A stretch of DNA of 64,000 nucleotides, from the NCBI RefSeq assembly GCF_964204645.1, contig NC_134026.1, positions 31,226,150 through 31,290,149 of the forward strand, written 5' to 3'. This DNA is from Tubulanus polymorphus (taxonomy: Eukaryota; Nemertea; Palaeonemertea; Tubulaniformes; Tubulanidae). The notes under the pieces are model-generated. The model ran no database searches, was not told the origin of the DNA, and was given only the letters and a program-made list of their open reading frames with translations. Below, in pieces: positions 14,701-57,937 of this stretch. The position numbers and the translations under genes are program-made. The first letter of the stretch is position 1. Each line of letters opens with the position of its first letter.

Positions 14701-17700
14701 GATTGGAAAATATTAATGACAAAACCATAAATTGCGTAGTGAACGTCACGAGCTCAGTATTAATGAAGAACTTACTCTTATTCTTAGAATTTGAAGTCGC
14801 TGGAACTGGTTTGATTAATTTATGAAATTGTTCATCGTTTTCCTTTTGAAGACGTCCTTTCGGTTTCTCAGGAAAATTCAACTAAAACAAATATAAAATC
14901 ATTGCAGGTCATCAGGATTTTACGTTAAACCTGAATAAAATCCTGAATTAATCAACTAATTCTATTTTCATTAGATCAATAAAATGCACAATACATATCA
15001 TTATTGAGATTTTGATTGGAACTGGATTTATGGATACCGGTATCTGTGGCTGTATTGAGGGTCAGGTGAGTGGTAGGATTCTGTTTGATTCTGGAATGTC
15101 AGGTCACCAGTTGAAACCACTGCATATTACTGTACTCTATCATCGGTGAGGCGAGGGACACTCATTGCCTCTCTCCACCCAGGAGCAATTGAGGGGTACC
15201 CGACCTGAGCCTTTAGTAGCAGGACTAGTGTTACACCCAGAGAGATATGACTGATTCACAGTAAGACTGTAAAATTCTTTAAGCAGCCTGGATCGATGGA
15301 CCTTTTAGCACTTCTAGCTTGATTTAACACTATGAAAACATCATCATAATTGTGAAAATTACCTGTTGTCGAAGATAATGATTTTCAGATCGTAATATTT
15401 TCAATTCTCTTTTCAACGTCAGAATCAGTTTTTCACGAGGATCCTGCATTTCATAACAAAATATAATAACAGTGAAAACATTCCTTCAATCAGTAACAGA
15501 CTTGAACAGAAATCATCATCGAATACTGACTGACCATTTTAATGACTGGTTTATTTTTGATTTTCTTAGCTCTGTTTGAATAACGTAAAGTGTTCATAGT
15601 TTCTCCTACGTTGTAAGTTGAAGGACTGACACATGATATCTGTACAAACAAAATAAACATAATTATTCATAATTCTTATCCGTAAACCATTGAAAAATAT
15701 CTCAAATATCAATCTGGATCCAGTTACACATTTGTGAGTAAAGAGTTGACTCAGAACTCTGGATCCAGTTCCACATTTGAGTTAAGAGTTGACTCAGAAC
15801 TCTGGATCCAGTTCCACATTTGAGTAAAGAGTTGACTCAGAACTCTGGATCCTGTTTCACGTGAGTTAGGAGTTGACTCAGAACTCTGGATCCTGTTTCA
15901 CGTGAGTTAGGAGTTGACTCAGAACTCTGGATCCTGTTTCACGTGAGTTAGGAGTTGACTCAGAACTCTGGATCCTGTTTCACGTGAGTTAAGAGTTGAC
16001 TCAGAACTCTGGATCCAGTTCCACATTTGAGTTAAGAGTTGACTCCGAACTCTGGATCCAGTTTCACGTGAGTTAGGAGTTGACTCTGAGTTAAAATCAG
16101 TTCATTTTCAATCAATTAGCTTTGAGTCAAATCTAAACTCGGCAACTGTGTAACTGAATCCTGTAGTCATATCTACCATTAATGTAACACCATTTCCTCC
16201 TAAACTATCGGCTAAAAGTTTAGTCAGTTTGCTGTCTCGATATGGAATGTGACCGTGCTTCTTTTTACTATCCGCTAATGCTGAAATGCAGTTCCCTGAA
16301 AATAGAAATATATGAGATTAGTTTATAGCTATATCTGTGTATTTACCACGGAGTGAGGGATATAGAAAACACTGATACCAACCTAGAACTAAGAGACTTT
16401 TATTGATGTTATTAGTTTCTGCGACTGCTTCGCCGTTTTGAGTGTCCTTTACTTTCTCACTTCCTAAAAACATGTTTGACATCAATTAGCAACAACAGCA
16501 ACGACAGATTGATTTATAACACGTAACAATCCAGTTTCCACACGACTACACTATCAATTAGAGTAATCTGACATCAAATTTGGTAGTTTCACATCCAAAA
16601 TGCATCAAATTTTGAGAATATATTTCTAGATATTTACGATATTTCTAGATATTTACGATATTTCTAGATATTTCCGATATTTCTAGATATTTATGATATT
16701 TCTAGATATTTATGATATTTCTAGATATTTACGATATTTCTAGATATTTATGATATTTCTAGATATTTACGATATTTATGATATTTCTATACTAACATGA
16801 GCTGCATAAAAAGAAGTAAACACTCTTTTAAGTGTGGCCGTAGTCAGGCTTGCAGTTCTTAGTCAGGTTAAGGTCAAATATCAACTCTAGGATCAAAACA
16901 TTGGAAATAAACTAAATCCAAGGTATTGTTGACACTGCAACTGGATTTGTGAACTCTGTAATTGGACGCAGAACAGCGGGTCTGGGTGTGCCAACTTTGG
17001 AATTGGACGCAGAACAGCGGGTCTGGGGCTCGTGAACTGTGGAATTGGACGCAGAACAGCGGGTCTGGGCTCGTGAACTGTGGAATTGGACACAGAACAG
17101 CGGGTCTGGGCTCGTGAACTGTGGAATTGGACACAGAACAGCGGGTCTGGGGCTCGTGAATATTTTACCTGCCAGATCTACAAACGTTAGTTTTCCATGC
17201 TTCGTTACGTAGAGATTTTCATCTTCAGGATCTTGTATTTCAGAATCTATCATTAATTGTAACATTGTGTGACTTCTACTGGAATAGTCATTAGCATCAG
17301 TAGCAGCAGAGACTCGGTTCCTCAACCCTAAAACAACAACAACAACATTATTCATATAATCATCTTGATCAGACAGTCATTCCTGGATATAAAGAGTTTT
17401 CAATGAGTTTTAAAATTCAAATTTCGAGAAGCGTCTGCATGACTTTCATATCCCAATTACAGTAGACTCCTCCTGAATCGGTACTGTTTATCTCAGTAAA
17501 CCAATCGGTACTGTTTATCTTGGTAAACCGTCTAAGGGGGTAAAAAATACATTTTCATTTTTCAATCCTCCTCACCCCAATTCTAAATATCATCTACAGA
17601 GAGGGAGGGAGGGAGGGGGAGTGGGGAGGCAGAGGGAGAGAGAGAGGTGGCATCCATGGAAGCGTATGTACACATACTTAATGAATGGCCACTATTGATC

Positions 17701-20700
17701 AAAATGTGGGTAATTTCCTGAGGAAAAGAGTAAATGTTTGATAATGGTTGGTATTGATTTACGCTTGCTCTCAATTTTAACGAGCCACAATTTCACTTCG
17801 TAATTTACCGAAAACCAGAGATGAAATATTCAGCATATACACATTCTTTACAACGTGGAAACATAAACGACTATTAGTCATTGTGTAAATATTAGTAATT
17901 CATGAATTAATGACTGTAGTAAAAATACATGTTCTAAAACTGATAGAAACCAACCGTGTAAGGGAATATTGAAATAAAACAAGTCATTGAGAATTAGTGA
18001 AGGGTTTCATGATTGATTGAATATTGAAGTATCAATTAATATGCAACTTCACGACTTATAAACAAACACAGGAGACAGAGGTATACAATACATCTACGGG
18101 TATAATAGACTCCGCTCAAGTCTGATCTTTTGACTTGAGAGTGATATCTGAGTTGGACGATACAGTAGACTCCGCTGAAGAGTCTGATCTATTGACTTGA
18201 GAGTGATATCCGAGTTAGATGATACAGTAGACTCCGCTCAAGTCGGATCTTTTGACAAGAGAGTGATATCTGAGTTAGATGGTACAGTAGACTCCGCTCA
18301 AGTTGGATCTTTTTACTTGAGAGTGATATCTGAGTTGGATGGTACAGTAGACTCCGCTCAAGTCTGATCTTTTGACTTGAGAGTGATATCTGAGTTGGAT
18401 GATACAGTAGACTCTGCTCAAGTCGGATCTTTTGACAAGAGAGTGATATCTGAGTTAGATGGTACAGTAGACTCCGCTCAAGTCGGATCTTTTGACAAGA
18501 GAGTGATATCTGAGTTGGATGGTACAGTAGACTCCGCTCAAGTCTGATCTTTTGACTTGAGAGTGATATCTGAGTTGGATGATACAGTAGACTCCGCTCA
18601 AGTCTGATCTTTTGACTTGAGAGTGATATCTGAGTTGGATGGTACAGTAGACTCCGCTCAAGTCTGATCTTTTGACTAGAGAGTGATATCTGAGTTGGAT
18701 GGTACAGTAGACTCCGCTCAAGTCTGATCTTTTGACTAGAGAGTGATATCTGAGTTAGATGGTACAGTAGACTCCGCTCAAGTTGGATCTTTTTACTTGA
18801 GAGTGATATCTGAGTTGGATGGTACAGTAGACTCCGCTCAAGTCTGATCTTTTGACTTGAGAGTGATATCTGAGTTGGATGATACAGTAGACTCCGCTCA
18901 AGTCTGATCTTTTGACTTGAGAGTGATATCTGAGTTGGATGGTACAGTAGACTCCGCTCAAGTCTGATCTTTTGACTTGAGAGTGATATCTGAGTTGCAT
19001 GGTACAGTAGACTCCGCTCAAGTCTGATCTTTTGACTTGAGAGTGATATCTGAGTTGGATGATACAGTAGACTCCGCTCAAGTCTGATCTTTTGACTTGA
19101 GAGTGATATCTGAGTTGGATGATACAGTAGACTCCGCTCAAGTCTGATCTTTTGACTTGAGAGTGATATCTGAGTTGGATGGTACAGTAGACTCCGCTCA
19201 AGTCTGATCTTTTGACTAGAGAGTGATATCTGAGTTAGATGGTACAGTAGACTCGCATAGGGAAAAATATCTTTAGAAATGTCAGAGTTAATCAGTGATT
19301 TCTGATTTGAACAGAGTCTGCTATATTTTCTATTAACCTCACTGAATAGAAATGTGACTTCGCCTAATTCTAGAAAATTGATCTGCTAAACTCTTCCATA
19401 CACAACCTAGGTATCAATCATTTAGAAAACCAATTATAACAAAATATCTGGATAATTTCTCAATAAATCAATCATTGATCTCGTTTGAGGGGCGACACAT
19501 TGAGAGAGAGATCAACAGGTTGAGAATTGATAGAAAATATAACACTATCTGAAAGAATTATCGACTACTTTGTGAGTGGTTTTTCCTGTGAGTGGTTTCA
19601 CCGTGAGTGGTTTCACCATGAGTGTATAGTGTATTCTACCTCAGTCAGATTGATGGCTTTTAATTGATAAATAAACATGAAGCAATAAATGTTGCCGTGG
19701 TCTCGCGCCGGAGACCGAGAGGAGAGCGAAAACTTTATGAGATTCTCCGCAATAGCAAAATACGCCACGCTCCGGCCGGCCGCTGTGTGCTGTTGCCGGT
19801 AGCAACCTACACGGAAAAGTTCATAACAAATATAAATCAGGAAAGAATTAACATATTTTCGTTTGCGTCGAGATTTCTAAACGAGAACTCACTTCAACCT
19901 GTTCATTTTATTCTCTATTCATATTGAGGACGAGTGAAAAATAAAAACAAGTCGCGCTGTATTTGTGCATTCAAGCGTTCAATATATATAAAAAAACATT
20001 CTTTATAAAAGATATTTGAAAAGCGTTGATTTTGTAATTTGACTCTATTTGTGTCGATGTAGAAATAGCTGTTACTTAAATATAAACGCTTATTTAAAGC
20101 GCTTTTATACTTAAATAGTTTTTAGAACTTCAAATAGATTTCGTGGTCCTTCTTTTTGTGACTCAATTTATGAAGGATTGGAAAAACAGTCAAAATTTTG
20201 TTAACCACTTTTCCAGACGATGAATTACACTAAATTTTTAGACCCGTTTTATATAAACTACTGAATTAGAAATATAAATGGAGACTTATGTGACGACTTA
20301 TCCAAATGATGACTTAAATTTGAAATATAAATTTGGACTTATGCGATGACAAAAAGAGAGATGATTTCCGTAATGTGACGACTTATAACAAATATGTAGT
20401 AATTCTATGAACGGAATTTTACTTACTTTTTTCCCGTTTAATTAAACCGTTTCCGAACCCGATTTGAACGTCGTCTATTTCTAGTTTAATCGGGCCGATG
20501 ATATCTCCGTCATCGGTGAGTAGAGATAAAATATAAACCGCTTCCTCGTCGCGTTCAAAAATCAAATCCTCGAAATCATCGAAACTTTCATTCATTTTAC
20601 GAACGTTTTCCGGTTCGAAATTCTTCCAAATTTTTTTCGCTCGTTTTTTCACGAATTTATTCTCTTTTTCGGAGCCTTTATCTTTATTTTCCGAGTCGGA

Positions 20701-21423
20701 CTGACTGTAGCTGCTGCTGCGGCTGTTATAAATCTGATCAGGCGTCGCTGATTTCGGATTTAAATCTGCTTCTTCGTTGAAATTAAACACAATTGATTCG
20801 ACATCTGATTCATTCTCCTCATTATCAATATTACTATCTTTAGAACGATTAATCGCTGAAAGCGCTGATTTTTTAAGTTTAGATTTAGATCTGGTTTGTA
20901 ACGGAGCTCGTAATGAAGAGACCGCCGGAGCTGGTTGCGATTTACGCCTCGATTCGTTCTGATCGGGTTTTAACAGATTTCTAGACGGTATCGTCGTCTT
21001 CCCTCTTTGCACCGTCGACTGTGTCCTCCTTGTCGTCGGTGATTCTGTCCTCCTCGTCGCCGGCGCCGCTGCCGATGTTTCAGTTTGTGTTTCGATATTT
21101 TTAAACGGTTCGTCCTGCGTTTCAGTTTGAACTCCGATATCTTTATCCGGTGATTGAGTTTGAACTTCACGACTCTCGGTGTTCGGTTTTAGAGGTTGTG
21201 TATTAACCATTGATTTCTGTTTATTGATCTCTGGTAAAACGGGAGTGATCCTCGTGTGATCCTCACGAGGATTACTCCTCCTCCCGGAGACCGCCGATAG
21301 AAACGGTCCGTGTTGTACATATTTAACGGGATGTTGAGGTGATGTAGATGTATTCACGTATTGTCCAGTAATCGGTGGTTGTAATTGGTCAGTATTTAAC
21401 GGTTCCTCTGTTTCGACTGGTAC

Positions 21424-21461
<38 letters not shown>

Positions 21462-24400
21462 GAGGTGATGCTGAACCGTTTATTCTAACAGGTCCGTACG
21501 TATATATATTAATACCGTGTTGTTTATCAGTTTTATGTGGTTCACTGACGTGTGACGTTACATCATTACGACTAACACTTCTAAACTCATCTTCATCAAC
21601 TCTCCTATACGGGTAGTGGTCCGAGTGATACCCGTTACGGGCCCGGGCCGGGGTCGTCCCGCGTTTCGTAGTCCCGTATTTCTTCCCTCGTAACACGTAC
21701 TCAGTTCTAGGAATCGGTGATTCATCGGTCGAATCGAAACCGTAATTATCCCTACGAAATTCGCGTTGTTTTTTCGATAGTTTTTTGAGTTGTTTTTTCG
21801 CGCTGAGACTGTCGAGGTATTTCCTACTCGGTAGTCCGTGCGGAGAATAATCCAAATCATCCAGGTCATTATTATTATTATGATGATTATTATTATTACG
21901 TTTAAGTCTGATATTTCTATACGGATTCATTCTCTCGATCTCGCGCCGATACTGATCCAGTAATAAAAGTTCCTGTAATCGATGTTTGAAGTTGTGATAT
22001 GATTGGTTACTGGAGTCAGCGTGCTGCTGCTGTAAACCGTCGTCGTCAGCGGCCGTGGCAGACGGGTTTGTCAGTAACGTTTTAAACCTCGTAGGTGGTG
22101 GATATCGTTCCAGCTCGTCCCAGTATAAATCGTCGGGTGGACTCGTCAGTAATTTATTAGATTGTTTAGCGATACTCGTCGGGTTTAAGACGACCGGTTT
22201 GTTACCGCTGTTAAGCGTGTAATCGCCGTTCCAACCAGTCAAACGTCTTTTACGAGTCAGCGTTTCTTTAAACGTATTGTAACCGATTTCAATGTCTTCA
22301 ATATGATTGAGGTCGTAGCTGTAAGGTTCGAACGATCGAACGAAATATTCCTTATCGACATCTTTTATGAATCCGTTATCAGTAAATAGGTCGCTGTCAT
22401 CGTTTCTGTAAATATCGTCAGTGTTTGCGATATTTCGATGTTTTTTCAGTGGTTCCGTCTGAATCGCTTGATCTGTTTTACTTTGTGCGGCGACTGCTGG
22501 TTTTTTCTTATTTCTTCGTTTCGGTCTGTGAATTTTCGGTTTGATATAAACCTCTTCCTCGACGGGACTCTCATCATCATCATCATCATCATCGTCACTT
22601 CTCCATTGTTTATCTCGATATCTCAAATCGTGATATTTCCCCGTGCGATATCGAGGTATTCTCTCGTATCTATCCTCATCGTTTTCCTCGTCGTCACTCA
22701 GCGAATGATGCTTTGTTCTCCTCTGTTGTGGTTTTACCGGTGGTTTTAGTAAGTTATGTAAATGTTGATCAGTTTGTGGTATAATAACCACTGCGTACGG
22801 CTGTTGTTGTTGTCGCGGTAATAACGACTGTCCTCTGTTGTCTATCACCGGCAGTAAGTTACCGATCGGTATTTGATCGAGGAATGTTTGTTGTTGAGTT
22901 GGAGCAGCAGGTGGCGCTGCTACAGCTGGTTCGGGTATAGCCTGTTCCGGAACAGGAGACGGTACAAGGATTGATCTTCGAGGTCTGATATCTATAGAAG
23001 GTCTAGTTGAACGTATAACGTCTATAGAAGGTCTACTGTGTAACCATCTCGCGCTGGGGTCGCTCATTTTTCTCGAGATGTTGCTCAGTTTTCTCAGCGG
23101 TTCAGGTATTTGATGCGAAGGTCTGCGGATATACCGAGCATCGTCTGGTGCCAGATTCTGAGATGTAGAAGGTCTATTTCTGGGAGTTGAAGGTCGTCTA
23201 TCTCTGACCGGTGGTTCCATTCTAGGTTTATCGTGTCTATCAGTCGGGGTCGGTGTCCGGGATCGTCTACCCAGTATCTGTACCGGTGGATGTTTAGAGT
23301 TGTGGGTTCTATCCGGGGTTCTAGCTCGACTGATCGGCCTCGGTTCGCTGATATAAATAGGACTTCGCGCTCGAGACGGAGCCTTCCTCTTCTTCGGTTT
23401 TTCTCGCTGTTTTGGAATATCCGGCGATCGAGGAGGACTGCTCCTAGACTGTCTCCTCATCGGAGGAGGACTGCTCCTAGATTGTCTCCTCGATGATTCC
23501 GGTTTGAAATACTCGTCGCTGTCCGTTGTTTGATCCGGTGCTTGTTTTCTATACGAGCGAATGAACCTCGACCGATGCGGATCCTCGTGAGGTTGCTCGT
23601 GAGGTTGCGGAGTATTCCTACGACTGATCTCTCTCTGAAACGATACGATCGAATCCTCTCTGTCGAGGTCGGTCGATAGTTCGTTATTGTTGAGTTTAAG
23701 TCGAGGTATCGGAGTCGGTTCTCGACTGACGGGTGACTCCGCGTAACGGGGTGACTCCGCCGCGTAACTACGCTCCGTTTCTAATTCGTGTAATTTCTCG
23801 CGTTTCTGTTGAACTTTCAATCTCAAACTCTTGGCTAGCGCCGGTGAGATCGTCGAGAACTCGTCATCAGACGGATGACGATGTTTCCAGAATCCGTCTG
23901 CGTATTGACTGAGAGCTGATCCCTCTCTACTGTAACGAGGTGTATTCACACCCGACTGATCCGGAGCCGCTAAATTATATTTCTCGCGTATCGTTTTTTT
24001 CCGCGGGGGACTCAAACCTACGACTCCTTGAATTCTATTCCTCGACATTTTTATTCTAGGTACGACATTTTTCGTTTTCTAATTCTAGAATTCGCATTTT
24101 TCGTTTTTTGGTCGGGTCAGGTCGTACGCGAGCAGTTTCTCGATAAACACTCGAAGTCTCGTGAATAAATAATGAAACGATGATGAAATGATGTACGGTT
24201 ATTGAAACGTTGTCGACGGCGATGATGAATCCGTCGTAAAATATCGAAATATCGATAAAAACACGACGAGAGTCGGTTTTATAACGATTAATACTCGGAA
24301 CAAACGAGCACAAAACTCAACTCGATTCACAGAGAATAAATCCTTATAAATAATGTATGAATTAAATCATAAAATACTCATCACTCACGACGGATTGAAA

Positions 24401-25626
24401 CTGAGTGTGACACGACTTATAGCAGTCCGAGATACACGACTTATAGCAGTCCGAGATACACGACTTATAGCAGTCCGAGATACACGACTTATAGCAGTCC
24501 GAGATACACGACTTATAGCAGTCCGAGATACACGACTTATAGCAGTCCGAGATACACGACTTATAGCAGTCCGAGATACACGACTTATAGCAGTCCGAGA
24601 TACACGACTTATAGCAGTCCGAGATACACGACTTATAGCAGTCCGAGATACACGACTTATAGCAGTCCGAGATACACGACTTATAGCAGTCCGAGATACA
24701 CGACTTATAGCAGTCCGAGATACACGACTTATAGCAGTCCGAGATACACGACTTATAGCGGTCCGAGATACACGACTTATAGCGGTTTCGAGATACACGA
24801 CTTATAGCGGTTCGAGATACACGACTTATAGCAGTTCGAGATACACGACTTATACCAGACCGAGATACACGACTTATATATATTTCTGAGCTGAGATTTC
24901 ACTGTCAATTTCACTGAGCTGAGATTTCACTGAACTGCTATCATTCAACGCTGGTGTCAGTATCTAAACATTAAACATTCCGATTCCTGCGAAAAACGAT
25001 CGCTTTTAGTGAATAATATTTCAATGAATAAAACGACAACTCGAGAAATATTTCATCGATAAATCATTTGTAACAGATGAGAAATTCTTTCATTGTTGAC
25101 GCGACGGTAACAGCCCCGGTAACAGCGACGGTAACACGGACGGTAACAGCAGACGCCCGACCGTTAGAAAAATCTTATTTCAAACTAATAATCAATTAAA
25201 CTGCACCTTTACGAGATGATATATCTGATATTCCTCAAGAGTCTTCCCTATTTATGATCTAATACTTCTCAATATCCAATATCACTGACAGTCTAAACAT
25301 TTCTCAGCCAAAACCACTTTAAAAACATCAATATTATTCCAATAAAGCGTCGAATGAAAATATTTCCTTTTTCTGATGATAGAAATAGTAATCCAGTTTA
25401 TGAACCGGCACTGATCCTGTAAGCGCAGGTCCGTCGTATATCTGTGTCAGAAAGAGTATTTTAAATATCGCAACGTGTTTCTTTCATATTCCGTACAAAA
25501 GACCTTTTATAAATTCAGTCTGACGTTGCCTAGTGTTTTCATACAATAATAACTAAACTATCAGCCACAAAACTTTTTTACTATTTCAGATGAAAGAAAG
25601 GAATTTCTTTCAAAAAGACACTCGTC

Positions 25627-25672
<46 letters not shown>

Positions 25673-28600
25673 CTAACTGACTCCTATGTTACATCCAATG
25701 TTCAGTATCAAGAACCTTCCTCATTAAAATGAGTCACGTCATGAATGACTTCGAATTCAAGTTTTAAACTCGATGACAAAAAATTTATGAATCTTTTAAT
25801 AAGAAAATGTCAAAAATATGAATTCAAATGAAATGTGGTGTATTTGCTGACTGTGTGTGTGTCATGCATAGAAACCTATAACAGTATTCAGTAGCTGTTT
25901 GTCACTGAAAGTATTTTTTTTTTATCAGCTAGCAGGTTTTTTTTTATATCCCAAATGATTAAATAGTTTCATTATATGGAAATATGACACGACAATAAAC
26001 GTATAGAAATGAATATCAACGATGAATTGAGGAGCAGGTTTTGTAAAGACGCGATGAGAAAACAGGTCTTACTGTTCACACACCGGGCGTCTTTAAACAT
26101 TAATCAGTGAATGTCACGAGAAACACGGGCAGACACCTGCTCGGTTAGTTCATTAATCAGCCTCAAGATGGCAGCATTATCTAGCTGCAATTATAACTCA
26201 GTTCAACAGTCGTTTGACTTTGATAAGTTTAACATAAATTGATTTCAAATGAGCAACAACTGTGGAACTGGCTTTGGTTCCACTAACTGTAGAACTGGAT
26301 TTGGTTCCACTAACTGTGGAAGTGGGTTCAGTTCTGTGGAACTGTGGAATTAAAATTGATTTACCTTCTTCTAAAACTGTCATCATATCATCGAGATTCT
26401 CACAGGAAACGATGAATAAATTCTCGACGTAAAATCCTTTATTTTTGCCCCAGCGAACGTTAAGGGGACTCCTACGAGGGTACGGATTCAACAAATCAAT
26501 AACCTACAAATATATCAAATACTGTTAGTTATAATCGAGCTGATGATTTGAAAACATCTCAGTTTCATTCATAGACCAATGGAAACAGTTGTAGTTCTTG
26601 ATTTCACAAAATGGAGTCTCTTTTCACTTATTCAACTTGTTGAGTGAAATAAGACTTTTTTGGATACAGTTTAAAAGGGTTTAAAATCGATGTTTTTGTT
26701 CAACTATCCGTCCTTTAAAGACCTCTATCGGATATGTACAACAAAAAATGATTGAGCATGGCCTGACGCCTGACGTCTGCTCAGCTGACGCCTGATGTCT
26801 GCTCAGACGGAGTTATAGTTACCTGTTCGTTGTATATTTCTAAGTAAGATGCGTGAACTCTTAAAGTCGTTGGATTTTTTGCTTGCATGTGACGATACAA
26901 ATAAGCGAACGATCGCGGAATTAGTCCGAATAGTTCAGCATTCGGTCGACGGCCATCTTGAAACTGTATAACGGCAAAATGAAACAATTAATCGAATAAT
27001 TTCAATGAGATTGGATTAAAATTTCATTAATTCTAATGCAATCATGAAACAGAGTCAGAAGGTCAATTTTCAATGACAACTAACTACGTATCTCATGATG
27101 TCAACCAGGGAGAGGTGTCCATACCTCCCTTGGGTTAAACCAGGGAGAGGTGTCCATACCTCCCCCGGGTTAAACCAGGGAGAGGTGTCCATACCTCCCC
27201 CGGGTTAAACCAGGGAGAGGCGTTCATACCTCCCCGGGTTAAACCAGGGAGAGGTGTCCATACCTCCCCCGGGTTAAACCAGGGAGAGGTATCCATACCT
27301 CCCCCGGGTTAAACCAGGGAGAGGTGTCCATACCTCCCCCGGGTTAAACCAGGGAGAGGTGTCCATACCTCCCCCGGGTTAAACCAGGGAGAGGCGTTCA
27401 TACCTCCCCGGGTTAAACCAGGGAGAGGTGTCCATACCTCCCCCGGGTTAAACCAGGGAGAGGTATCCATACCTCCCCCGGGTTAAACCAGGGAGAGGTG
27501 TCCATACCTCCCCCGGGTTAAACCAGGGAGAGGTGTCCATACCTCCCCCGGGTTAAACCAGGGAGAGGTGTCCATACCTCCCCAGGTTAAACCAGGGAGA
27601 GGTGTCCATATTGCTAGTACGGTCTCAAATCTGGGGATCCCTATAATCTCACTAGTTGAGGTGGTCCCCGGGGATCCCTATAATCTCACTAGTTGAGGTG
27701 GTCCCCGGGGATCCCTATAATCTCACTAGTTGAGGTGGTCCCCGGGGATCCCTATAATCTCACTAGTTGAGGTGGTCCCCGGGGATCCCTATAATCTCAC
27801 TAGTTGAGGTGGTCCCCGGGGATCCCTATAATCTCACTAGTTGAGGTGGTCCCCGGGGATCCCTATAATCTTACTAGTTGAGGTGGTCCTGTGATTGTAT
27901 GTGTCTTTCCTGATCCAGTTTGTCCAAATGCAAATGCTGTACAAGAATATCTGCAAAATTATCAAAATCATTTTATAATAAAACTAAGTAACTTTACAAG
28001 AACTGGTGTAGACCTTCTCAAGTACAGTTTGAAATTATCATTTTGTTCCCAAACACTTGTAATTTACTTGTTGGATCGTGATATGAATGTATGAGTGAAT
28101 GAATGACCTATTGTGTGGTAATTAAGTAATTCGGTCACTATTAAAAAGAAATAAACAACATGTTATCAACTTGACCACAACTACCCGGCGCTACCTGGCA
28201 CACATCCAAACTGTAGGACATTATGTGTACGACTGGTATGGATTATAACATGACAACCTTGAACAAGTGTCAAATAGTGGTCGTATAGTACCCAGTATAC
28301 CTGGCAGCTACCCCCCCCCTAGTGTTCCCACCTCTCTGAAGAGCTCTCACCTCCCCGGGGAGCTCCAACCTCCCCGGAGAGCTCTCACCTCCCCGGAGAG
28401 CTCTCACCTCCCCGGGGAGCTCCAACCTCCCCGGAGAGCTCTCACCTCCCCGGGGAGCTCCAACCTCCCCGGGGAGCTCTCACCTCCCCGGAGAGCTCTC
28501 ACCTCCCCGGGGAGCTCTCACCTCCCCGGAGAGCTGCTACCTCTCTCATTGTATACATACCCATTTATTGCTAAATCAATGAGTTTTTGAACTCCACAAT

Positions 28601-31330
28601 GTTTGAAAACATCTTCCTGCGACGCTTCACATTCAAACGTTACATTAAATGTGAATGATTTCGTCGATGATTGATTATCAACCTGTTAAAATAGAAAATA
28701 TCCTCACTATTATCGGTACTGGTATCGGTAACAGTACAGGTATTGGTATTGGTATCAGTATTGGTATCAGTATAGGAATCGGTACTGGTATCGGTATCGG
28801 TATCAGTACTCAGGGGCGGATCCACGCTATATTCCACTGTATTGCAGAATATAGTCTGAATATTTTCAAGAAGTACCTAATCTAACAGTTCCAGAATGCC
28901 TTTAAATACAAGGAAAGAGTGATTTTTCAAATTTTTCTCGGGGAAGACCCCAAACCACCCTTTAATGAGCTTCATCGCCGGCATATCATCGAGCAATTAT
29001 TTTGAGGAGTACAGTTAAATTCACCGGCTGGATGCGCCCCTGGTACTGGTATTGGTATTGCCATCAGTACTGGTATTGGTATCGGTAGATAAGGAATCAT
29101 AGTTATCGGTTCATTCTAAATGAGAATCCCTGTAAATAGATGCTGAACCGGTGAGTTTACGATGTTAGGAATAGTTTAGAATGTCACGTACCCAAATGCC
29201 GCCGTCTCCGGGAAACTGAATCACACTTTTATCAGCTCGATTCCGTTCCGCGATATTTAAAGGTCGAACTCTGAAAACAAATAAAGAACAGTAGAATCAG
29301 ATCTCACGAGACCAATGAATATTCCACGCGAGACAGTGAATGAATTCCAGGGGGCGCTCACAGCGCCGTGTCAGGTCAACATCACATCAGATATTTTTTC
29401 ACGTGGCGCGAGTGATAATCAGAGACAATCCGTGGTAAGCAGAGGTCAGGGTCACGAGGAGTCTACCGTTTAAACTCATAGAATGTTTATCCGGAGTTTT
29501 CTTACCTAATAACTACCATCGACGCCATAAATCCAAATTAAAATATCTGCCTAAATATTCCATGATATCTAAGCGTATGCAATGGATATAAGTGAGTGAC
29601 TTTCTGATGTACGACACTCACTCACTGTCTTATAGACAACTCACACTAGTTTCTGATCACGGTTTATTTGTTTATAGTTATGTGACTCTGAGTAAATTAA
29701 CTCCTTTATTTCATACACTTAGATAAATATAGTTCGGGCAGCGACAAGGAGGAGCAGTTTATAATCTATTCCTACAAATAATAGCATTCATTCCTGCACC
29801 GATTAAAATAGTTGAGATATTTGAGTCTGAAATATTCAACCAGGGTTTGTCAATACAGTCAAACCTGTTTCTTGATCTGAATCATTTAGAACTGACTAAA
29901 TTCTCAATTAAACATCATGTTTTACACATAATTTGTGTGTGAACCTAATCAATAAATGGACAGGTGGTTTAATTTGGTTTGAGACCATCTCTTTATAAAA
30001 GCTTACCAGTAAGGCGGATTAACGTGGATTAAACTGATAAGGATTAGGCCGCAGTTAAGGTGGATTAAATAGATTTGACTGTATTTTATATTAGCTTCAC
30101 CGGGGTCATTTTTTCTAACCTGTTGGTGATTGATTTTAATTCTGGAACAATTTTAAATAAAAATCCCTGAAAATGACTAATATACGATTTAGTCAAAACG
30201 TCAAATCAACTTTTAGCTCAAAGGAAATATTTCAGACTCTATTTTCTTTTTAAATGTCAAATTTTATATGATCTTTAAAATACAGACTCAAGAATATTCT
30301 ATCAACGGTAATCTGAAATATTCTAATTAGTTTCTATAACAGGAATAGTAAACACGGCAAAATTCATTACCGTAGTAACCGTGCGCAACAATACAATAAA
30401 TATCGTGTCGCAATAGCGTGTTAACAATTTCATGATTAAAACGTAATTGTTCATGAAGATTTAATCCCATACAATCCTTCTTTTATTGTCAACTCCTACA
30501 ACACGGACGGACTATTAAACTTATTGTATATATATCTACGCGGTGACAACCAGTGAATTCATAATAACGGTTGAAACTATTGGAAACTTACCTAACAACT
30601 ACATTTATATTATCAGTCCCTGAATCATCGGAACCATCAGTGTTATTAGACGTATCTGTAGCGCTCCTGAAACACATAGAAATAAACATAATATTAAAAC
30701 ATATTCCAATGAAATAACAGTGAAACTCGCAGCTGAATCTGTTACTGGTGAATCTTACACTGAATTAGAAATACAAATCAAGACACAAAAATAGAGACGA
30801 TTTTAAAAATGTGACGACTTATTCAAATGAAAACTTATACACTAGTTGGGTCTCAAAAATACAAAATGACTAATATCCGATCCCCGCGACCTGGTGATAT
30901 TTTTTTTTTACCTAGCTATCGTTATTTTTCCAGAATATGAAGGTTTTCTAATTAAAGGTTTTTTCCGAGGAGCTGGTATAGGCTGATCAGTACTACCAGC
31001 ACCAGTAGCACCAGCAATAGCATCGGCACCAGCACCAGTACCAGCACCAGCAGCAGGAATACGACCAGCAGCTACTATTCCATTATTTGTATGACTATCG
31101 GGTTGTGAGCTTCCATTAACAGGTGCTCCAGCTCCAGCTCCAGCTCCTGCTCCAGCTCCTGCTCCAGGTACTGCTCCAGGTCCAGCTGAAGAATTATTAA
31201 CGCTATTTTTCGAATTATTCACAGATTTTTCCAGTTTCGTCGCGTGATTCGTCGTAGATTCAGTTTTTGATTCCGATGATTCCTCTTTTATAGAATTCAT
31301 ACTTCCGCGTTTATCCGAGGAGAATTTCAT
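11731..31330 (-). CDS. KIF12: KIF12-type kinesin, 19 coding exons, 899 aa
   Basis: Kinesins are ATP-driven microtubule motors; KIF12 is a little-studied kinesin linked to epithelial and ciliary phenotypes. Exons (minus strand): 30912-31330, 30592-30666, 29192-29270, 28561-28682, 27875-27950, 26823-26963, 26365-26503, 17169-17327, 16383-16463, 16177-16295, 15535-15639, 15363-15443, 14776-14881, 14168-14381, 13104-13275, 12857-13011, 12115-12422, 11949-12005, 11731-11822. All 18 junctions are in phase. The N-terminus is low-complexity (Gly/Ala run, PAPRKKPL). The motor spans about residues 155-505: [13 protein letters not shown]-loop GQTGSGKT (241-248), SYLEIYNEQ, switch I SSRSH (366-370), switch II DLAGSEK (401-407), [22 protein letters not shown]12-like points are [16 protein letters not shown] and [16 protein letters not shown] near 624-639. 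A short coiled coil and a Pro/Gln-rich tail follow. The upstream GTG at 31363 is not a start; ATG at 31330 is. Confidence 0.93.
12533..12805. repeat. 18-bp minisatellite in kinesin intron
   Basis: GTGGAACTGAGTCCAGAACA units, about 14, with two longer AGAGAACTGTGGAACTG variants. The frames through it are artefacts. Confidence 0.9.
13733..13985. repeat. 50-bp minisatellite, five copies, kinesin intron
   Basis: Units contain CTTGGAGTTCAAATGATTAC, then TCCACGCTCTCAGTAGCCAG and TCTCTCTCAG. Copies are nearly identical, suggesting recent amplification. Confidence 0.9.
14428..14575. repeat. GTTCTACAGTT / GTTCCACAGTT minisatellite, kinesin intron
   Basis: About seven 19-22 bp units of AGTTCTACAGTTCAGGA(C/T) type between kinesin exons 13 and 14. 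Same core as the arrays at 2,135 and 15,712. Confidence 0.85.
15712..16090. repeat. About 48-bp minisatellite, kinesin intron 10
   Basis: Eight or so units of GGATCC(A/T)GTTTCACGTG or GTTCCACATTTGAG joined to AGGAGTTGACTCAGAACTCT. It merges at 16,090-16,165 into a diverged copy of the palindromic element (AGTTCATTTTCAAT core). Confidence 0.85.
16621..16795. repeat. 18-bp AT-rich minisatellite, kinesin intron 8
   Basis: GATATTTCTAGATATTTA(C/T) units, about nine. AGATATCT-like self-complementarity could favour slippage. Confidence 0.85.
16925..17158. repeat. About 43-bp minisatellite, kinesin intron 8
   Basis: Five units of GTGGAATTGGACGCAGAACA followed by GCGGGTCTGGGGCTCGTGAA, lying immediately downstream of the exon 17169-17327 donor. 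The array runs into the frame of the kinesin exon but is intronic by splice-site position. Confidence 0.85.
18085..19256. repeat. 60-bp minisatellite, about 19-20 copies, kinesin intron 7
   Basis: Units such as AGTCTGATCTTTTGACTTGA followed by GAGTGATATCTGAGTTGGAT and GGTACAGTAGACTCCGCTCA, highly uniform over 1.17 kb. Reading frames through it on the minus strand exist only because 60 is a multiple of three. Confidence 0.95.
20419..24048 (-). CDS. Large disordered protein of unknown function, 1209 aa, inside kinesin intron 7
   Basis: A single uninterrupted 3.6 kb frame from a real ATG at 24048 (good purine context, stop codon upstream in frame) to TAA at 20419. I do not recognise the family. 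Composition is Arg/Ser/Pro-rich and probably disordered: many SP/TP and RRxS sites ([27 protein letters not shown]), an acidic run DDDDDDDDE near residue 490, an Asn-rich stretch near 740, a short Ala run, repeated VQTQ/IQTE segments. The best-folded part is the C-terminus: [45 protein letters not shown]. It lies wholly in the 9 kb intron between kinesin exons 7 and 8, same strand. The frame ends at AAAAA then GTAAGTAA, so it may terminate there or splice onward. A minus-strand AATAAA at 19907-19912 could serve a 3' UTR. Length and composition make chance unlikely. Confidence 0.8.
24408..24885. repeat. 24-bp minisatellite, about 19 copies
   Basis: ACACGACTTATAGCAGTCCGAG plus AT; about 15 perfect copies then decaying variants toward 24,885. 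It lies about 360 bp upstream of the 1209-codon frame's ATG. In-frame RLIAVRDT and TAISRVSR repeats are artefacts of the 24-bp period. Confidence 0.95.
24890..26190. other. Kinesin intron 7, no gene seen
   Basis: AT-rich unique-looking DNA with a (CTGG)n run at about 25,627-25,670 and poly-T stretches near 25,915-25,945. No coding signal recognised. Confidence 0.5.
26248..26350. repeat. GTGGAACTGG minisatellite beside kinesin exon 7 donor
   Basis: Three to four CTGTGGAACTGGCTTTGGTT-type units just downstream of the exon 26365-26503 donor; another GTTCCACAGTT-core array. Confidence 0.75.
27092..27609. repeat. 35-37 bp minisatellite, about 14 copies, kinesin intron 5
   Basis: GGTTAAACCAGGGAGAGGTG followed by TCCATACCTCCCCCG. 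Each unit is partly self-complementary (AGGTGTCCATACCT). On the transcribed (minus) strand each unit carries GGAGGTATGG, resembling a 5' splice site. Confidence 0.9.
27632..27893 (-). repeat. 37-bp minisatellite made from kinesin exon 5 end and donor site, seven copies
   Basis: Seven copies of a 37-bp unit (GGGGATCCCTATAATCTCAC followed by TAGTTGAGGTGGTCCCC on the + strand). The exon-proximal copy contains the end of coding exon 5 (…PPQL) and the donor GTAAGA at 27869-27874; the other six repeat the same exon tail with GTGAGA instead. Confidence 0.95.
28325..28537 (-). repeat. About 19-bp minisatellite of donor-like motifs, kinesin intron 4
   Basis: AGCTCTCACCTCCCCGGGG units. On the transcribed strand seven units read GGGAGGTGAGAGCTC, a near-consensus 5' splice site, and others GGAGGTTGGAG. 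The real exon 4 donor (GTATGT) is at 28555-28560, just upstream in transcript order. Confidence 0.9.
28705..28815. repeat. GGTATCGGTACTGGTATC-type hexamer repeat
   Basis: Six-base-based repeat GGTATY in kinesin intron 3; a second short tract is at about 29,040-29,090. Between them is unique sequence. Confidence 0.85.
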
Positions 31331-39918: not shown

Positions 39919-41010
39919 TTAAGGCCAGTCGATATAAGTTCCTGTCATTTCGAAGAATCTTTCGTTGTGGGGTCGGAAGAAATTGTTAAGTTTTTCCATC
40001 ACTTCAGGATGAACTCGGGGATGTTTGCGCCCTTTCCCCGTGCCCAAACAATGGTCCTGTCCTTCGTTACGCATACAATAAAATCCTTTCGTTTCGTTAA
40101 AGTAGAAATTCTCTCTCGTAATTCTATGCGCCAATCCGAGAAACTTCTCTACGCGTTTTATCTGCGGAATCGGGTTCCGAATGAGTTCGTCACCGTCGAC
40201 GATCAGAACCTGACTGGCTGGAAATATCTCCAACCATCGCTCCATGTGACGATGATAGATACTAGTCCTGATAGCTTTTAAATGTAGATTCACCTTCCCA
40301 GTCACCTGATCGATGGCTAATTGCTCAAAACTTTGATGACTTTTATTTCTGGCGAGTTTATTATAGTGAATTTGAGTGTAGTCGCTGATCGTTCGAACTG
40401 TCGGGTTACGGACGATCAATAGCAGTTTGATACTACTGTTCATGGCGTATATCCTCTGCGGCACCTCCTCCGTGATGAAATAAGCCGGACTCTTTTCGAT
40501 GGTTACCTGGTGCGGGAAAGAATACGGCATCCGTTTGCGATACCAATCCAAACCGTATTTATAATTGTCATCGTTATCGAAAAAATGAATTTCCTCCATG
40601 GCTGCGTTCACATCCGGGTGTAAGTTCAAAAATTCCAACAATGCGCGCGTTCCGCATTTTCGAACGCCGATAACAATGCATTGCGGTAACCGTCGCTTAG
40701 TACCGCGAATATGCAAATTAGTCGGCTGCTGTTTCGTGTGATCGGATTTAGACGAGTGTTTTAGCGAATTTTGATCGGAACTAAGGCAGAGGAATGGTTG
40801 ACCTAAAATACTGGCGTACATGAGTCGAGCGAATATTGATAGAATGATAAAAAAGCAAATGGCCGCTATGACGATTAGTCCACTTCGTCCGCATTTCCGT
40901 TTGACGATAGGCGGCGCTCTAAAATCCACATCCACCAGGCTGTCGTCTGAGGCGGTCAATGCGCGGTGTTTCTGTTTTTGATTTAACAGCGGGGCTTTGG
41001 CCACAGTCAT
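39919..41010 (-). CDS. HS3ST5: Heparan sulfate glucosamine 3-O-sulfotransferase, HS3ST5-like, 363 aa
   Basis: Type II Golgi enzyme that moves sulfate from PAPS to the 3-OH of glucosamine in heparan sulfate. The sequence shows a cytosolic tail, one membrane segment at about 44-66, a short stem, then the sulfotransferase domain: 5'-PAPS loop GVRKCGTRALL (115-125), EEIHFFDNDDNY with the likely catalytic Glu at 140, EKSPAYFITEEVP (172-184), 3'-phosphate site RNPTVRTISDYTQ with Arg201 and Ser209, a Cys312/Cys321 pair and KGR at 326-328. Segments such as IHFFDND, TIEKSPAYFITEEVP and MNSSIKLL are closest to vertebrate HS3ST5 (346 residues). The coding region is one exon. A TTTACAG acceptor ends at 41019, 8 bases before the ATG, so at least one 5' UTR exon exists upstream. 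The second Gly of the usual RKGGTRA loop is Cys119 here. The symbol is by resemblance; orthology needs a tree. Confidence 0.92.
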   Translation of the reverse strand: MTVAKAPLLNQKQKHRALTASDDSLVDVDFRAPPIVKRKCGRSGLIVIAAICFFIILSIFARLMYASILGQPFLCLSSDQNSLKHSSKSDHTKQQPTNLHIRGTKRRLPQCIVIGVRKCGTRALLEFLNLHPDVNAAMEEIHFFDNDDNYKYGLDWYRKRMPYSFPHQVTIEKSPAYFITEEVPQRIYAMNSSIKLLLIVRNPTVRTISDYTQIHYNKLARNKSHQSFEQLAIDQVTGKVNLHLKAIRTSIYHRHMERWLEIFPASQVLIVDGDELIRNPIPQIKRVEKFLGLAHRITRENFYFNETKGFYCMRNEGQDHCLGTGKGRKHPRVHPEVMEKLNNFFRPHNERFFEMTGTYIDWP

Positions 41011-41531: not shown

Positions 41532-41945
41532 TGTTTCCTTGAGCTAGTGTAGTTTATTCAACGTTTTGACTTTATCCTAATGTCATCTTCAGGAATACTG
41601 TATTCCTTGAGCTAGTGTAGTTTATTCAACGTTTTGACTTTATCCTAATAGTCATCTTCAGGAATACTGTATTCCTTGAGCTAGTGTAGTTTATTCAATG
41701 TTTCGACTTTATCCTAATAGTCATCTTCAGGAATACTGTATTCCTTGAGCTAGTGTAGTTTATTCAACGTTTCGACTATATCCTAATAGTCATCTTCATG
41801 AATACTGTATTCCTTGAGCTAGTGTAGTTTATTCAACGTTTAGACTTAATCCTAATAGTCATCTTCGGGAATACTGTATTCCTTGAGCTAGTGTAGTTTA
41901 TTCAACGTTTCGACTTTATTCTAATAGTCATCTTCAGGAATAATT
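41532..41945. repeat. 68-70 bp tandem repeat, six copies
   Basis: Unit CCTTGAGCTAGTGTAGTTTA, then TTCAACGTTTCGACTTTATC and CTAATAGTCATCTTCAGGAA. Two further copies occur at 52,945-53,088 and degenerate pieces at about 48,745-48,930 and 57,100-57,135. On the minus strand the unit contains GACTAT-TAGG-ATAGTC, a hairpin followed by GAAACG. Confidence 0.9.
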
Positions 41946-52944: not shown

Positions 52945-53088
52945 AGAGTCCGAAATGTTTCCTTGAGCTAGTGTAGTTTATTCAACGTTTCCACTATATC
53001 CTAATAGTCATCTTCAGGAATACTGTATTCCTTGAGCTAGTGTAGTTTATTCAACGTTTCGACTTTATCCTAATAGTCATCTTCAGGA
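52945..53088. repeat. Two more copies of the 68-70 bp repeat
   Basis: Same unit as 41,532-41,945, about 11 kb away, directly abutting the palindromic element at 53,087. Confidence 0.85.
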
Positions 53089-55810: not shown

Positions 55811-55997
<187 letters not shown>

Positions 55998-56127: not shown

Positions 56128-56500
56128 TGTTTATTCTGTAACTGATCTTAAGTTGTTAGATTGGCTATAGAACCAAAATGAGCTTAGACTGGTCTCAAGT
56201 TGTTAGATTGGCTATAGAACCAAAATGATCTGAGACTGGTCTTAAGTTGTTAGATTGGTTATAGAACCAAAATGAGTTTAGACTGGTCTTAATTTGTTAG
56301 ATTGGTTATAGAACTAAAATGAGCTTAAACTGGTCTTAAGTTGTTAGATTGGTTATAGAACCAAAATGACTTTAGACTGGTCTTAAGTTATTAGATTGTT
56401 TATAGAACCAAAATGGGCTTAGACTGGTCTTAAGTTGTTAGATTGATTATAGAAATAAAATGAGTTTAGACTGGTTGTCTTTAAGCCATGACTGTGCGAA
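56128..56500. repeat. Left arm of large inverted repeat: 51-bp units
   Basis: About seven units of TTAAGTTGTTAGATTGGTTA, then TAGAACCAAAATGAGCTTAG and ACTGGTC. Confidence 0.9.
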
Positions 56501-57139: not shown

Positions 57140-57490
57140 TGAGCTTATTTTTGTTCTATAACCAATCTAAGAACTTAAGACCAGTCTAAAGCCATTTTGG
57201 TTCTATAACCTAACAACTTGAAGACCAGTCTAAACTCATTTTGGTTCTATAACCAATCTAATAACTTAAGACCAGTCTAAACTCATTCTAGTTCTATAAC
57301 CAATCTAACAACTTAAGAGCAGTCCAAGCTCATTTTGGTTCTATAACCAATCTATCAACTTAAGACCAGTCTAAACTCATTTTGGTTCTATAACCAAAGA
57401 CCAGTCTATGCTTATTTTAGTTCTATAACCAAACTAACAACTTGAAGACCAGTCTTGCAAGACGACTTCTGGACTTGAGTCATGACTGTG
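57140..57490. repeat. Right arm of large inverted repeat: same units, opposite orientation
   Basis: About six units of CTCATTTTGGTTCTATAACC, then AATCTAACAACTTAAGACCA and GTCTAAA, the complement of the 56,128 array about 640 bp away. Confidence 0.9.

Positions 57491-57779: not shown

Positions 57780-57937
<158 letters not shown>

Follow-up and report, generated by a model that had tools for sequence, protein, structure and literature searches.

A 37-bp minisatellite repeats the end of exon 5 and its 5' splice site in a kinesin gene carried on the minus strand of the DNA analysed here (the window, C2:31226150-31290149, 64,000 nt; the genome assembly comprises 268 Mb and 77 contigs). We regard this array, with a probability of about 0.85, as a tolerated 'mirage', the name given in amphioxus to tandem duplications of exon-intron boundaries, with ordinary splicing at the outermost donor, at position 27874, and the other copies carried as intron. 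The array looks tolerated rather than selected, and as far as its sequence can tell there is no good sign of it acting as a splicing switch.

Tandem Repeats Finder delimits the array at 27633-27889, with 6.9 copies, 99% matches and a score of 507. On the minus strand, each unit combines 15 exonic with 22 intronic nucleotides, and in gene orientation the copies read GGACCACCTCAACTA + GTRAGATTATAGGGATCCCCGG. The repeat spans the exon-intron boundary, and its units copy the splice signal, once as GTAAGA and six times as GTGAGA, the +3 base being A in copy 1 and G in copies 2-7. The latter are alike at every shared base (copy 7, of 35 nt, is two bases short), and their donor-like sites stand at 27837, 27800, 27763, 27726, 27689 and 27652. 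A DNA search of the genome returned a single match for the array, at the kinesin locus; 'single' is a lower bound, as the search scores best candidates only and skips very common words. The parts of the array are as follows:

27853..27889, minus strand: array copy 1, made of the last 15 nt of exon 5 and the first 22 nt of intron 5, with the authentic donor GTAAGA at 27874-27869
27633..27852, minus strand: array copies 2-7, each with CTA|GTGAGA, the last of 35 nt
27863..27865, minus strand: in-frame stop TAG, reached from any donor beyond 27874

The kinesin exons were taken by eye, and their numbering is that of a conceptual model:

31330-30912, minus strand: putative exon 1, start uncertain
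30666-30592, minus strand: exon 2
29270-29192, minus strand: exon 3
28561..28682, minus strand: exon 4, donor at 28560
27875..27950, minus strand: exon 5, the P-loop exon, ending ...ITGPPQL, CTA|GTAAGA
26823..26963, minus strand: exon 6, ...EIYNEQ
26503-26365, minus strand: exon 7
17169..17327, minus strand: exon 8, GLRNRV...SSRSH...DLAG, joined in frame to exon 7, ends counted by hand

When joined, exons 2-8 give an unbroken match to the Pfam Kinesin profile (positions 1-234 of 327, 194.3 bits), and a genome profile search located a further downstream exon in the window that matches positions 254-305. Splicing at the authentic junction would leave the host gene coding, and its motor region appears intact. 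Among solved structures, KIF11 motors match the sequence best, and the gene presumably also resembles KIF12. We take the junction at 27874 to be right because, reading by eye, no other GT lies between the codons of the P-loop and the in-frame stop of GTA AGA TTA TAG. Any donor past 27874 adds these four codons, so that the protein ends ...GPPQLVRL, three codons after GPPQL, and its match to the Kinesin profile is limited to positions 1-95. Every later donor yields this one identical truncation, shortly past the P-loop.

A preliminary description of the locus had proposed seven 37-bp copies carrying the exon 5 end and a donor, with GTAAGA in the authentic copy and GTGAGA in the six downstream ones, and the sequences of the individual copies agree with it. 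Its prediction that use of a downstream donor brings in an in-frame stop and cuts the motor just after the P-loop was also correct (VRL, then stop). One might ask whether the array is an assembly artefact or the gene a dead one, given that a single assembly is the basis of these observations and that the genome search matched the array once. However, the sequence of copy 1 is not that of the other copies, normal gene sequence surrounds the array, and the motor region is intact over profile positions 1-234 and followed by a later matching exon. An artefact or a dead gene is therefore extremely unlikely.

Kinesin exons 7 and 8 are separated by 9 kb of sequence that contains, on the same strand, an open reading frame of 1209 codons (20419-24048, minus strand), which is of low complexity in places and ends at a donor-like GTAAGT. 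It is possibly a nested gene; it has no match in Pfam or in NCBIfam, a prokaryote library.

As for the history of the array, it probably began when a segment across the kinesin 5' splice site, 15 nt exonic and 22 nt intronic, was duplicated in tandem; it would then have grown to seven copies, with the inner ones staying identical. The donor most likely to be used by the spliceosome is that at the exon edge, 27874, because it has the better +3 base, lies at the real exon end and shows the greatest openness of all copies in our folding model. The six other copies would leave with the intron. Whichever later donor was occasionally used, the product would be the same: the mRNA would carry a premature stop and encode a motor truncated just past the P-loop. 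Nonsense-mediated decay would presumably remove such mRNAs.

The strength of the copies was judged with a donor matrix built from 59 junctions, of 60 candidates, from 138 kinesin exon matches, with the host gene of the array excluded. Copies 2-7 score 1.68, at the 2nd percentile of these 59 inferred donors of this genome, and copy 1 scores 3.80. Two other minisatellites of the gene served for comparison:

27103..27610, minus strand: second intron 5 minisatellite, 35-bp unit, 14 donor-like sites
28329..28535, minus strand: intron 4 minisatellite, 19-bp unit, beginning at intron position 26, seven donor-like GAG|GTGAGA sites

A site as good as the GTGAGA of copies 2-7 is present in 57% of 2000 shuffled 37-bp units; when the 35-bp and 19-bp units are tested in the same way, the proportions are 0.5% and 2.7%, respectively. 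The 37-bp copies are therefore donor-like by descent, not by strength. The sites of the 35-bp array (GAG|GTATGG twelve times, GAG|GTATGA twice) score 8.3-8.76, around the median of real donors, and those of the 19-bp array score 7.0 versus 6.35 for the authentic exon 4 donor.

Several observations nevertheless weigh against undisturbed splicing at 27874. The authentic donor is itself weak, at the 5th percentile by the matrix, and the matrix is partly circular because the choice of its sites was guided in part by a general donor consensus. The energy of the duplex with U1 gives copy 1 no advantage (-4.5 versus -4.6 kcal/mol for copies 2-7), and only 3% of real donors have a U1 duplex equal to or weaker than that of the authentic donor. 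All 14 sites of the 35-bp array outscore the authentic exon 5 donor from behind, which makes some mis-splicing plausible. Nor are copies 2-7 hidden: their median openness, that is, the modelled probability of the six donor bases being open, is at the 53rd percentile of real donors.

In the folding model, no copy of the array is as open as copy 1, with an openness of 0.119 versus 0.034-0.057 (median 0.049) for copies 2-7; the median of the 59 real donors is 0.048. Exon 5 together with the array folds at -119.9 kcal/mol (z = -3.61 versus 100 dinucleotide shuffles). The tiled 37-bp unit folds better than tiled shuffled units by a small margin (P = 0.05, 200 shuffles); in the same test, the figure was 0/200 shuffles for the 35-bp unit and 0.025 for the 19-bp unit. 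With A at +3 in all copies, the modelled openness of the downstream sites rises to 0.128-0.253, and with G at +3 in all copies, that of copy 1 falls to 0.012. The native arrangement is therefore the best of the three at favouring the real donor, which may be a coincidence at one locus.

It is tempting to see in these models an array that silenced its own decoys. The change of purine at +3 in the inner copies would lower their match to the consensus and also promote their mutual pairing through the nearly self-complementary CTCAACTAGTGAG, making them less open, and the A at +3 would keep the real donor open and better matched. There would be one usable donor however many copies there were, and the spread of the G variant would have been favoured because it removed competition. 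The openness values, the effects of the all-A and all-G substitutions and the folding of the tiled unit and of exon 5 with the array are all in line with this idea, which hangs on one locus and one base. Against it, copies 2-7 are as open as the median real donor, hiding is no general rule, the 19-bp decoys of intron 4 being wide open (92nd percentile), and in an amphioxus mirage the copies at the edge of the cluster are described as escaping homogenisation without such a reason (PMC3087553). We consider such self-silencing unlikely. The broader proposal that folding hides all decoys was rejected, as the median openness of the 35-bp sites is at the 32nd percentile of real donors and the other two arrays lie higher; for 87 donor-like GTs that are not part of an array, the median openness is 0.0225, no higher than that of the 35-bp sites.

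How often arrays cross exon edges was surveyed in the 113 of 138 kinesin exon matches that were usable (flanks present), counting arrays with a period of at least 8 and a score of at least 50. The donor-side edge is crossed in 2 of the 113 exons, by the 37-bp array and by a repeat at C3:1993600-1993745, and the acceptor-side edge in 0 of 113; because the 37-bp locus was chosen beforehand, the unbiased donor-edge figure is 1/112. Random shifts of the arrays within their regions (2000 shifts) give 9.8 expected edge hits versus the 2 observed, P(<=2) = 0.0045. Arrays avoid exon edges in this kinesin sample, which is in keeping with tolerance and not with preference. The C3 repeat has a 78-bp unit in 1.9 copies, with ACAAG|GTATATTT in both, and its longer product meets an in-frame TAA after the first donor.

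Similar repeats have been described before. The amphioxus reports present mirages as minisatellite-like tandem duplications of exon-intron boundaries in Adh3, where the units measure 10-72 bp, and in the globin genes BflGb6 and BflGb9, BflGb6 being the one whose edge copies escape homogenisation (PMC3087553). They also describe mirage-like repeats in PGBD5, citing Adh and troponin C (PMC3902484), and state that AG/GT signals occur in many repeats with regular splicing undisturbed (PMC3087553, PMC3902484). Amphioxus mirages and the kinesin array have in common a tandem repeat across an exon-intron boundary with a splice signal in the units; they differ in the host gene, here a kinesin, and probably in lineage, the 268-Mb genome being smaller than those of amphioxus, and length instability is known in the mirages, whereas the kinesin array has been seen in one assembly. 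The human 6-16 (IFI6/G1P3) minisatellite, also the subject of a 1995 paper, has repeat units of roughly 12 bp, and more than one of its donors is reportedly in real use. It is of the same kind as the kinesin array, where use of donor copies can be gauged from matrix scores, which argue against 6-16-type use of several repeat donors. In human segmental duplications, internal tandem repeats averaging four 30-bp units alter gene structure, and those at boundaries may cause novel introns (PMC2812944). Unlike them, the kinesin array shows no new intron, and beyond copy 1 it is simply intronic. The published amphioxus and human boundary repeats mean that the architecture of a minisatellite copying a splice site is already known.

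The preliminary description had further suggested that the locus offers seven competing donors and that copy number might set the share of transcripts spliced downstream, as a length-dependent switch between full and truncated motor. The count of seven is too low, since the same intron holds the 14 higher-scoring sites of the 35-bp array, and competition is unsupported, given the very low scores of copies 2-7 and the ease with which shuffling produces their equals; what stands is the weakness of the real donor, whose U1 duplex is no stronger than those of its copies. A switch is possible because of this weakness. Many donor-like sites follow the authentic donor, the stop is reached from every later one, and the identity of the inner copies suggests recent turnover. 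The scores of copies 2-7 speak against a switch, and the sites of the 35-bp array score so far above them that those would be the first competitors. When the copy number is varied from 1 to 12, the openness modelled for copy 1 ranges over 0.074-0.135 (window of 150 nt) or 0.017-0.070 (window of 300 nt); it peaks at one copy, is lowest at three and is flat from about eight, with no steady trend. Arrays avoid exon edges, and the published amphioxus analogues are described as splicing normally (PMC3087553, PMC3902484). Several results thus oppose a switch, none was found favouring dependence on length, and we consider it very unlikely.

At 59 of 60 kinesin junctions that could be resolved, with the host gene excluded, arrays are not denser by donors than by acceptors, as shown by the array bases at increasing distance:

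0-30 nt: donor 30 versus acceptor 5 of 1770, the 30 coming from the one straddling C3 array
30-60 nt: donor 55 versus acceptor 30 of 1320
60-100 nt: donor 99 versus acceptor 80 of 1560
100-200 nt: donor 271 versus acceptor 465 of 2500
200-400 nt: donor 200 versus acceptor 199 of 1200

Within the host gene, introns 8, 6, 4 and 7 have arrays that start 8, 16, 25 and 39 nt, respectively, past their first base:

28329-28535: array near the start of intron 4
26763-26806: array near the start of intron 6
26258-26325: array near the start of intron 7
16949-17160: array near the start of intron 8

Together with the 37-bp array, 5 of the 8 host-gene donors have an array at or close behind them. This local crowding is real; it was noticed post hoc and accompanies the high repeat density of the window, 20.5% of which consists of arrays (0 to 36% in 30 other genome regions). 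A genome-wide preference of minisatellites for intron starts was rejected, as an array spans the donor or starts at most 60 nt into the intron at only 3 of 59 kinesin junctions elsewhere. The idea that arrays carry donor motifs mainly on the sense strand was likewise discarded: among 11 arrays in 15500-31330, one of which, at 31124, is within exon 1, 5 score higher on the sense and 6 on the antisense strand, and in the survey introns 3 of 6 arrays score higher on each strand.

On its own, the kinesin array gives no reason to revise ideas about gene regulation. What it contributes is a clean and almost perfect example of a minisatellite that copies a splice site, joined by a second, smaller one in the kinesins of the same genome. 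The COX1 family, searched for as a taxon marker, returned no match. If the genome is not that of a cephalochordate, the range of animals with such repeats would widen relative to the accounts available to us. Near-identical natural donors that differ at one base are also good material for studying how the spliceosome chooses among copies.

Elsewhere in the window, two 47-bp arrays (56141-56475 and 57147-57397), separated by roughly 670 bp, share one unit but carry it in opposite orientations. They are flanked by long GCT runs (55812-55997 and 57782-57936), and the whole may be a mobile or inverted structure. A near-identical 69-bp unit is found in arrays 11 kb apart, at 41535-41942 and 52959-53088. 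Lastly, an uninterrupted open reading frame of 363 codons (39919-41010, minus strand) encodes a sulfotransferase domain (Pfam Sulfotransfer_1, 117.8 bits).
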